From: Novosphingobium sp.
Lineage (GTDB): Bacteria; Pseudomonadota; Alphaproteobacteria; Sphingomonadales; Sphingomonadaceae
Assembly: GCA_017987575.1 (NCBI GenBank)
Contig: JAGNTK010000001.1
Coordinates: 1,507 to 46,159, forward strand
DNA length: 44,653 bases
Direction of reading: 5' to 3'
Below, piece after piece: positions 14,436 through 31,808 of the stretch (its first letter is position 1; every line of letters starts with the position of its first letter). A program made the position numbers and the translations under genes. The notes beneath the pieces are model-generated. The model was not told the origin of the DNA. It did not search any database and saw only the letters and a list, made by a program, of their open reading frames with translations.

Positions 14436-15578
<1,143 letters not shown>

Positions 15579-15592
15579 TCAAACCCCCAAAG

Positions 15593-15601
15593 TTATCCAC
15601 A
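15593..15601 (+). promoter_or_regulatory. Perfect DnaA box upstream of ccrM
   Basis: TTATCCACA matches the consensus 9-mer exactly. It lies 24 bases upstream of the ccrM start codon, in the 5' leader or promoter. I saw no second box nearby, so it looks regulatory rather than an origin. Confidence 0.65.
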
Positions 15602-15605
15602 GGGT

Positions 15606-15767
15606 GAGTCTTTGCGGACTCCACGTCAAGCGCAAACTCGCGGGAATCCTAGGGATTCGTGGTTAAGATCGGGTGAAATAAAGCAGAACGAAACGAGTCC
15701 GGCACATCATCTAGAGTCTCGGGATTCACACCGGACTCAACATGTGGTGGTGTGGCTGAGCGGACTC
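15606..15767. promoter_or_regulatory. Dense GANTC methylation-site cluster upstream of ccrM
   Basis: Nine GANTC sites start at 15606, 15617, 15644, 15654, 15695, 15714, 15723, 15734 and 15763. Chance predicts under one in this length. Eight are in the ccrM-rnhB gap; the ninth is in the rnhB 3' end. A CtrA-like TTAA-N7-TGAA (7 of 8) is at 15663-15677. In Caulobacter, GANTC sites, CtrA and GcrA control cell-cycle genes, including ccrM. A promoter whose activity depends on methylation state is inferred. Confidence 0.7.
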
Positions 15768-16393
15768 GGTCGCGAAAAATCCACCGCCGCCACCGGCGCG
15801 AAACTGCGCCGATGGAGTGGGGTCGCTCCAAACCGCTCCAGCGCTGCCAGATGCTCGGCCGTGCCGTAGCCCATGTTGCGCTCCCAGCCGTAGTGCGGAT
15901 GCTCTAGCGCCGCGGCACGCATGATCCGGTCGCGGTGTTCCTTGGCGAGGATCGATGCGGCCGAGATCGAGGGCACCAGCGCATCGCCGCCCACGATGGC
16001 CCGTGCTGTCCAGCGCCATTCCGGCACGCGGCCCACCGGGGTCTTGTTGCCATCGATCAGGACTTCATCGGGTTCGAACCCCAGCCCCACCACTGCGCGG
16101 GTCATCGCGAGCATGGTCGCGGCAAAGATGTTGATCCGGTCGATCTCCTCGGCCTCAACCACGCCCAGCGCCCAGCGGCAGCTGGCCTTGATCTGCGGTT
16201 CGAGCATAGCGCGCCGCTTGGCCGATAGCTTCTTGGAATCGTCGAGCCCCGCAGGCGCGTTTGGCCCCAACAGACAGGCAGCCGCGACGACAGGCCCGGC
16301 CAAAGGCCCGCGCCCAGCCTCGTCCACGCCGACCACCATCTGCCCATCGGGGCACTTGGCAAGGATCAGATAATCACCGATATCAGCGGCCAT
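15737..16393 (-). CDS. rnhB: Ribonuclease HII
   Basis: 218 residues. Removes RNA from RNA-DNA hybrids, including single ribonucleotides. Signatures: [18 protein letters not shown] with the first catalytic Asp-Glu pair, [38 protein letters not shown] and [12 protein letters not shown]. The start is ATG 16393, with AGGAG about 10 bases upstream; the longer frame to 16594 lies inside the opposite-strand gene. The start codon overlaps that of the divergent sugar dehydrogenase gene in a shared CATG. It lies upstream of ccrM on the same strand. Confidence 0.92.
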
Positions 16394-17504
16394 GCGCACC
16401 AAACTCCTGCTCGCTCTATCCCCCCTCGTCCTGATTGCTGCAAGTTGCGGCGGCCCCGCGTCTGGGGATAGCCCCGCCAAGATCCAGACCCTCGACGGGC
16501 AGTTCATCACGCAGGAGCTGGGTACGTTCAACGAGCCCTGGGCGCTGACGGTGCTACCCAGCGGCGCGATGTTGATCACCGAGAAATCGGGCAAGCTGAA
16601 GCTGCGTCGGGCTGATGGCGCGATTCAGGACGTTCCCCTGCCCTTCACGCCTGACTATGGCGGCCAAGGCGGTCTGGGCGATGTTATCGCTTCACCCGAT
16701 TTCGCCAAAACCGGTCGAATTTACTTGAGCTGGGTCGAGGCTGGCGAAAACGACACTCGCGGCGCCGCAGTCGGCACAGGCACTCTGGTGCTCGGCCAAG
16801 GCGCGCCCTGGCTCGATGGTTTTGAAGTGATCTGGCGGCAGAACCCGAAAGTCACTGGCAAAGGCCACTTCTCTCACCGGCTGGTTGTCAGTCCTGACAA
16901 GAAGCACCTCTACATCGCTTCGGGTGATCGGCAGAAAATGGAACGCGCGCAGGATCCAGCCAGCGATCTGGGCAAAGTGATCCGCCTGCCGATTGACGCA
17001 AGCGGCAAACCCAGCGGCGCGGCGGAGCGTGTTTCGCTCGGCCATCGCAACATCCTCGCCCTGCAATTCGCCCCCGATGGGCGGCTGTGGGAAATCGAAC
17101 ACGGACCGGCTGGCGGCGATGAACTCAATCTGGTGAAGCCCGGTGCCAACTATGGCTGGCCGCTGGTTTCCGAAGGGCGGCACTATTCGGGTACTTTCAT
17201 CCCGCACCACGATACCCGCCCCGAATTCACAGCGCCGGCGCTCTACTGGAACCCGGTGATCGCGCCGGGCGGAATGGTGTTCTACACCGGCAAGATGTGG
17301 CCCGAATGGAAAGGCCAGTTGCTGATCGGAGCGATGAAACCCACCGCCATCGTGCGGGTGAAGATCGACGGCGAGAAAGCCACTGAGGAAGCGCGCTATC
17401 CCATGCCCAAGCGGATCCGCGCGATTGCCCAGGCCCCCGACGGCGCCTTGCTGGTGCTGGAAGACAAAGCTGACGGACGGCTGCTGCGGCTTTCGCGCAA
17501 ATAG
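16392..17504 (+). CDS. PQQ-dependent sugar dehydrogenase family lipoprotein
   Basis: 370 residues, six-bladed beta-propeller of the soluble aldose sugar dehydrogenase (GSDH, Yli-type) family. N-terminal lipoprotein signal with lipobox IAASC (cysteine at 19). Family features: [73 protein letters not shown] and GGMVFYTG. It would oxidise sugars in the periplasm using PQQ; no PQQ synthesis genes are in the window. Its ATG shares CATG with rnhB and lacks an obvious Shine-Dalgarno sequence. Confidence 0.88.
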
Positions 17505-31686: not shown

Positions 31687-31808
31687 GAGTCAGCGCCGTC
31701 TCTACATACGAATGCAAAGGATTCTGCGGGCCGCATAGTCCAGCCGGGCGATTCCGTCAAATGGCCCGAAAGGCCCAGCCAAAACGATTTATTTCAGCGT
31801 CTTGAGTC
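31687..31808. promoter_or_regulatory. pckA / chvI divergent promoter region with GANTC sites
   Basis: The 254 bp between pckA and chvI holds no gene. GANTC sites start at 31687, 31720, 31750 and 31804, more than expected by chance, so promoter activity may respond to CcrM methylation. I could not assign -35/-10 boxes with confidence. Confidence 0.4.

Follow-up and report, generated by a model that had tools for sequence, protein, structure and literature searches.

A GANTC-rich ccrM leader in Novosphingobium: a predicted core promoter found across the class and a helically phased inverted repeat found in one family

Introduction

The timing of CcrM is central to the alphaproteobacterial cell cycle, but to our knowledge little is known about how the gene encoding it is itself regulated outside Caulobacter. 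The locus studied here raises this question in an acute form, since the leader of ccrM is crowded with the very sequence that the enzyme methylates. An earlier note on this DNA reported nine GANTC sites in the 162 bp before ccrM, and we found all nine where it had placed them (15606-15767 of the 44.65-kb stretch analysed, hereafter the window; Table 1). It proposed that they form a hemimethylation timer that feeds CcrM activity and DnaA level back onto ccrM transcription, or else a methylated landmark in the DNA. Does this crowding of sites reflect the control of ccrM and, if so, how might that control be built? We addressed these questions by comparing the leader with the rest of its genome and with the ccrM leaders of relatives at increasing taxonomic distance.

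Results

The locus and the leaders compared

Both genes of the locus are on the minus strand, with rnhB preceding ccrM. The best NCBIfam model for the ccrM product is CcrM, at 604 bits, which is under the 830-bit equivalog cut-off of that model. The rnhB stop codon lies at 15737-15739, and the 3' end of the gene overlaps the left arm of an inverted repeat described below and the two outermost GANTC sites. The earlier description is thus to be corrected on one point: the sites at 15734-15738 and 15763-15767 fall within the 3' end of rnhB. A profile search also identified gcrA in this genome (G000:C30, 82.7 bits against a cut-off of 26.9).

Table 1. Features of the ccrM leader and its flanking genes (window coordinates; slots counted from TTGAC).
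Feature	Position	Strand	Remarks
ccrM coding sequence	14436..15569	-	377 aa; N6_N4_Mtase and RAMA domains
DnaA box TGTGGATAA on the ccrM strand	15593..15601	-	exact; overlaps last base of predicted -10 box and expected transcription start
Predicted -10 box CACCCT (consensus CAnnnT)	15601..15606	-	17-nt spacer
GANTC, core slot +19	15606..15610	.	about -16 to -12; last C is first base of predicted -10 box
GANTC, core slot +8	15617..15621	.	within the -35/-10 spacer
-35 box TTGACG	15624..15629	-	TTGAC conserved in leaders
GANTC, slot about -20	15644..15648	.	frequent in the Novosphingobium set
GANTC, slot about -30	15654..15658	.	frequent in the Novosphingobium set
CtrA-type site TTCA-N7-TTAACCAC	15659..15677	-	7/8 to TTAA-N7-TTAA
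GANTC, slot about -71	15695..15699	.	downstream edge of the dyad block
Right arm of inverted repeat, GACTCTAGATGATGTG	15703..15718	-	contains GANTC 15714-15718
GANTC	15714..15718		inside right arm
GANTC, slot about -99	15723..15727	.	between the two arms
Left arm of inverted repeat, CACCACATGTTGAGTC	15734..15749	-	contains GANTC 15734-15738 and the rnhB stop codon
GANTC	15734..15738		inside left arm
GANTC, slot about -139, outermost	15763..15767	.	inside rnhB, 29 bp upstream of left-arm site
rnhB (ribonuclease HII)	15737..16396	-	start codon ambiguous

The closest leaders compared were those of the best 80 of at least 573 confirmed ccrM relatives, mostly from Novosphingobium, which together with the window make up the 81 leaders of what we call the Novosphingobium set. 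Further leaders came from the same family (58; 50 other genera), from seven other families of the order (22) and from other families of the class (40). The last were picked by hand, one per family, among the best-scoring matches listed, so that this sample leans to the CcrM proteins nearest to that of the window. Start codons of the relatives were set by rule, which placed three leaders (L025, L028, L031) on a non-start codon and one (L074) on TTG; all were counted.

GANTC sites are concentrated in front of ccrM

The window as a whole is depleted in GANTC, with 60 sites observed against 184 expected from shuffles. A larger sample of the same genome, made of the window and 40 contig stretches, contains 610 sites in 417,607 bp, or 1.46 per kb. 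This sample covers about 17% of the genome, from an assembly of 2.49 Mb that is 82.6% complete, and its contigs were chosen by number, except C30, chosen for carrying gcrA. The ccrM leader is its densest 162-bp stretch, with nine GANTC against five and then four for the runners-up, so that within these 417.6 kb it is indeed the top outlier. The shuffles and the sampled genome thus rule out that the density arose by chance. Tandem duplication could also have produced such an array, but inspection by eye revealed no repeated unit around the nine sites.

The other GANTC-rich places of this genome deserve a brief description. The second-densest cluster, with five sites (L219:5280-5640, contig C175), contains several DnaA-box-like sequences, one with one mismatch and four with two. 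Its flanking genes are presumably a hemE-like gene and a DUF299/PPDK-regulatory-like gene, a type of neighbourhood that we take to be that of the Caulobacter origin, and the cluster is a candidate replication origin. The third, with four sites (31687-31808 of the window), precedes what we take to be a response-regulator-like gene (ORF from 31901, plus strand) and overlaps, on the minus strand, the 5' end of a presumed PEP-carboxykinase-like ORF. Finally, six GANTC are found within the 575 bp upstream of a dnaA match (L234, contig C110, 262-616).

The earlier note had raised against itself the possibility that the sites are not conserved in close relatives. We found the opposite. All 80 named relatives, the best 80 of at least 573, have 3-12 GANTC within 200 bp upstream of ccrM. 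At least two occur within 200 bp of the start in each of the 139 family leaders examined, including the 58 outside the Novosphingobium set, and at least four in each of the 22 leaders from other families of the order. In other families of the class, 34 of 40 leaders have at least one and six have none. Mean numbers per leader are 8.1 in the Novosphingobium set, 5.7 in the other family leaders, 5.5 in the order and 3.4 in the class. The sites are concentrated close to the gene: 0-200 bp upstream there are 329 sites in the family (58 leaders), 120 in the order (22) and 137 in the class (40), against 10, 3 and 8 at 250-450 bp, and the 80 leaders of the Novosphingobium set have 635 in the first 200 bp against 13 at 250-400 bp. 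Of the 16 self-complementary pentamers that leave the centre base free, GANTC is also the most frequent in each of the four groups. To the extent that the chosen matches are representative, GANTC-rich ccrM leaders are thus a trait found in a large part of the class. The density that had seemed distinctive is so relative to the sampled part of its own genome, but it is not peculiar to this genome.

These results leave very little credit to chance or unremarkable inheritance as the origin of the array. The relatedness of the leaders is the one thing we found in its favour, whereas the enrichment relative to the flanks, to other pentamers and to the sampled genome refutes it for density and conservation. 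Furthermore, the spacing of an upstream block changes in quantised steps while a control spacing drifts, as described below.

A predicted core promoter built around GANTC

A TTGAC sequence is present at -140 to -25 in 81/81 leaders of the Novosphingobium set, 58/58 of the family, 21/22 of the order and 29/40 of the class. We anchored each leader on the last TTGAC of this interval, which may occasionally be the wrong one, and the 11 class leaders lacking it drop from the slot counts. Relative to this anchor, GANTC recurs at +8 (or 7, 9, 10) and at +19, outside the family too. This was examined further in the order and in the class, the latter with 24 of its 29 anchored leaders. When GANTC starts at +19 precisely, the 23 leaders concerned all have an A at +24 and a T at +28, against 3/9 and 8/13 for the A and 4/9 and 8/13 for the T in order and class leaders lacking that site. 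Family leaders with the +19 site have the A in 72/72 and 40/41 cases (112/113) and the T in 55/72 and 28/41 (83/113). This pattern fits a -10 box CAnnnT separated by a 17-nt spacer from the -35 box, the first base of the -10 box being the last C of GANTC. At core slot +8 the centre base is variable in the class (five C, four A, two G and six T). GANTC therefore sits between the -35 and -10 elements of a predicted housekeeping promoter, in the window and in leaders across the class, and we found what appears to be a core promoter present across the class: TTGAC, a GANTC, and a second GANTC running into the predicted -10 box. A different arrangement recurs upstream of TTGAC in leaders from other families of the order (e.g. 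L148, L149, L151, L153): an A/T-rich stretch holds a GATTC about 20 bp before TTGAC, and a GAATC then immediately precedes the -35 box.

In Caulobacter, a set of cell-cycle promoters active at 40-60 min is characterised by GANTC between -10 and -35 (PMC4287350). The binding of GcrA depends on the methylation of GANTC, methylated sites recruiting the protein (PMC3667746), and GANTC is m6A-methylated in a Sphingomonas (PMC8067484). One could imagine a positive feed-forward and nothing else, in which methylated GANTC recruit GcrA and polymerase, CcrM activates its own gene, and the additional sites raise local GcrA occupancy. The GcrA-type position of the core sites and the presence of gcrA fit this idea, but it leaves unexplained the inverted repeat, the helical spacing and the sites more than 100 bp upstream. 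A purely positive loop would also be hard to switch off, yet in Caulobacter CcrM is limited to a brief period (PMC2217572). We therefore regard this explanation as unlikely.

DnaA boxes and CtrA-type sites at preferred positions

The exact DnaA box (TTATCCACA, 15593-15601) that had been noticed between the GANTC sites and the ccrM start is present, with the correction that it overlaps the predicted -10 box. An exact box that starts at +28 from TTGAC, on the ccrM strand, is found in 22/81 leaders of the Novosphingobium set and 20/58 of the other family leaders, with about zero expected anywhere in that stretch; exact boxes anywhere in 400 bp occur in only 32/81 and 29/58. Outside the family, the +28 position is occupied in 0/21 order and 1/29 class leaders. 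A box over the end of the -10 element and the expected start is where a repressor would bind, and so DnaA probably represses ccrM. Eight leaders of the Novosphingobium set (L018, L020, L023, L024, L025, L027, L042, L063; 8/81) have the box instead at +11/+12, in the -35/-10 spacer, and all eight have lost the +19 GANTC, an apparent exchange of one control site for another.

The CtrA-like site at 15663 was likewise recovered: TTAA-N7-TGAA (15663-15677) matches 7/8 positions of the CtrA motif TTAA-N7-TTAA (PMC4287350), and the window has just one other place that departs from this motif by one mismatch at most. In the family, 27/81 and 26/58 leaders (53/139) have TTAACC in the 70 bp before TTGAC, where about one is expected in each group; the order has 0/21 such leaders and the class 2/29. 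Within the family its commonest place is 72 bp after the left GAGTC of the upstream block. Of the leaders with TTAACC, 20/27 and 12/26 have at least three of the four bases of a second TTAA at the N7 spacing, whereas five other spacings gave 0-4. Although only a minority of family leaders have them, both types of site thus occur at preferred positions much more often than chance would allow. Together with the conservation of GANTC, they support a ccrM promoter controlled by CcrM, DnaA and CtrA. The earlier note had overlooked the layout: the placement of GANTC on the core promoter, the private inverted repeat and the helical phasing.

An upstream inverted repeat almost private to ccrM

Farther upstream lies a 67-bp block, whose conserved part is CCaCnanATnTnGAGTC-N15-GACTCnAnATnntGTGncgGactC and whose arms form an inverted repeat of GACTCnAnATnnnGTG. 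It is above the score cut (over 12) in 116 of the 139 family leaders; the 23 below the cut, three of them narrowly so, indicate that it is not indispensable. The exact half-site occurs twice in the window's own assembly (82.6% complete), both times in the ccrM leader. In 34 other genomes we found 42 exact half-sites, and none for the reversed control. Judged by their coordinates, 36 of the 42 are no more than about 300 bp upstream of ccrM. The six found elsewhere are in four genomes (one each in G012, G123 and G294, three in G178), and four of the 34 genomes have none. This is therefore a family-level inverted repeat that is almost private to ccrM.

Two other interpretations of the block were considered and set aside. 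The data give no support to a general transcription-factor motif, since with at most one mismatch there are 11 matches in the window's genome against 13 for the reversed control, and both exact ones are in the ccrM leader. An RNA hairpin, terminator or attenuator was rejected, because the variable positions of the arms pair near the shuffled level; in addition, no Rfam family reached its gathering score in the window. That the arms do not pair clearly above shuffled rows argues for a protein site in DNA rather than an RNA stem.

The centre base of the GANTC in the arms is nearly fixed (GAGTC in 44/44 at slot -110 of the Novosphingobium set, GACTC in 33/35 at slot -80 of the family, both slot windows mixing spacing registers), and other bases of the half-site are also conserved. 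The GANTC of the arms could thus be a mere part of the recognition sequence of a transcription factor, in which case the upstream cluster would say little about methylation. We think this rather improbable, given that the core sites, outside the arms, vary in their centre base and that the enrichment in GANTC reaches orders without the block.

Spacing between block and promoter changes by helical turns

Measured from the block's left GAGTC to TTGAC, the spacing takes a few discrete values in 115 of the 116 leaders: 88-89 bp (5 leaders), 98-100 bp (62), 109-111 bp (47) and 120 bp (1). The exception is L074, at 61 bp. On a tree built on short flanks, 14 of 57 independent pairs differ by more than 2 bp, and in 13 of these 14 the difference is a multiple of 10.5 within 1.5 bp. 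The control spacing, from TTGAC to ATG, fits such multiples in 5 of 19 changes (Fisher probability for the contrast about 2e-4, computed by hand). The best period is 10.4 bp for the block (R 0.93), whereas the control reaches R 0.36 at best. On a ccrM tree, which is better but covers the Novosphingobium set alone, the coarse spacing classes changed six times. The block-to-promoter spacing thus changes in steps of helical turns. This is the strongest argument we have that the helix must bring two complexes face to face.

The GANTC sites show a regularity of their own. When thirteen slots of the Novosphingobium set, selected by hand among the peaks, were pooled, they matched a lattice of 9.9 bp (R 0.94; 0/4000 random sets as good; R 0.08 at 10.5). 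Among single leaders with at least five sites, 64/78 of the Novosphingobium set and 30/46 from other genera of the family fit this lattice, both counts being inflated by shared ancestry, against 0/15 in the order and 1/15 in the class. Such regularity recalls sequestration by SeqA: a GANTC-reading protein could coat the phased, hemimethylated array after replication and hold the promoter off for a set time, although we know of no GANTC-reading counterpart of SeqA. The single lattice shared by the pooled slots agrees with this scenario, as does the fact that the next GANTC-densest place of the sample is the candidate origin. SeqA itself needs, in vitro, GATC pairs phased by whole turns (PMC5145175). 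On the other hand, the lattice is absent outside the family, its 9.9 bp differs from the helical repeat of 10.4-10.5 bp that the block-to-promoter spacing does follow, and the GATC sites of oriC are themselves unphased (PMC5145175). All considered, sequestration of this type seems improbable.

Discussion

Overall, our results favor, with a probability that we put at roughly one half, a methylation-feedback promoter of the GcrA/CcrM kind to which a dedicated, helically phased upstream complex has been added. This reading builds on what was observed: the sites and their conservation, where they fall on the predicted core promoter, an inverted repeat nearly private to ccrM and a spacing that changes by helical turns. 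From these we infer the binding proteins, the dependence on methylation and the negative direction of the feedback. RNA polymerase and the housekeeping sigma factor would bind at TTGACG ... CAnnnT, and GcrA, by analogy with Caulobacter, would help to open the promoter through the two GANTC between -35 and -10. After the passage of the replication fork, the array would be hemimethylated and the promoter permissive; CcrM would then re-methylate its own leader, and transcription would fall once the array is complete. Because there are many sites, the last one would be finished late, making the shut-off sharper or delayed. DnaA, over the -10 and start region, might keep the gene off around initiation, and CtrA might modulate it from the site upstream of -35. 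In the family, an extra protein would bind the GANTC-containing inverted repeat, and its side of the helix would be fixed with respect to the polymerase. Such a layout suggests that ccrM responds to the progress of DNA replication and re-methylation in the cell.

The sign of this loop deserves comment. Since GcrA favors methylated sites, the core promoter alone predicts activation by methylation, which is opposite to the negative feedback that we propose. For the latter we rely on a statement on Caulobacter, in a modelling paper, that ccrM is transcribed only from the hemimethylated chromosome (PMC2217572). The hemimethylation timer suggested in the earlier note is plausible; a passive methylated landmark fails to explain a layout that is tied to the promoter and phased with it. 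It is possible, and we suggest it tentatively, that a dedicated reader specific to the family binds the GANTC-containing repeat, senses its methylation, and opens or closes the promoter from the right face of the helix. The GANTC methylation of the whole genome would then have a thermostat built for the purpose, in effect an equivalent of SeqA control that acts on the methylase gene itself.

The elements of this leader are exact enough to be tested: a pair of core GANTC, a DnaA box over the predicted -10, a CtrA-type site, and a dyad that is nearly private to ccrM and obeys a helical spacing rule. Should the output of the promoter depend on methylation, this would be a self-measuring epigenetic control loop, which may be ancestral in the class in its core and elaborated in one family by the dyad and the array. 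In the literature searched, which lies mostly outside subscription journals and was available in part, we found no description of the array, the private dyad or the spacing rule. Titles and abstract openings on CcrM in Sphingomonadales or Novosphingobium, on GANTC in the ccrM promoter and on the Sphingomonas GANTC methylome include none describing such a leader, and a search within PMC11514494 yielded no passage on the ccrM promoter.

Methylation-linked GcrA/CcrM promoters are already known as a kind, and the comparison with them shows what this leader adds. The CtrA-activated ccrM promoter of Caulobacter shares with it the gene, GANTC in the leader, a CtrA-type site and a likely link to methylation state (PMC2217572). 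It differs in that here we find an array of nine sites, a DnaA box over the predicted -10, and an inverted repeat that is specific to the family and in phase with the -35 box. The GcrA-sigma70 promoters at methylated GANTC (mipZ, podJ, ctrA P1) have GANTC between -35 and -10 as well. Here the core has two sites, of which one runs into the predicted -10 box, and an array lies upstream, the role of GcrA being predicted. Brilli et al. (2010) predicted DnaA sites upstream of alphaproteobacterial ccrM, mainly where CtrA sites are absent, and were unable to deduce control by methylation from site counts (PMC2877005). Their prediction comes without a position, whereas here DnaA and CtrA sites occur in one leader and the DnaA box is fixed over the predicted -10. 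Promoters with hypomethylated GANTC shielded by MucR also couple methylation to transcription by a protein over promoter GANTC (PMC5172544), but a half-site nearly private to ccrM is unlike that of a regulator with many targets such as MucR. Finally, the GATC clusters of oriC and of the dnaA promoter in E. coli, read by SeqA, similarly associate dense methylation targets and DnaA sites at a control point of the cell cycle (PMC5145175); the motif and the enzyme are different, and here the cluster lies at the methylase's own gene.
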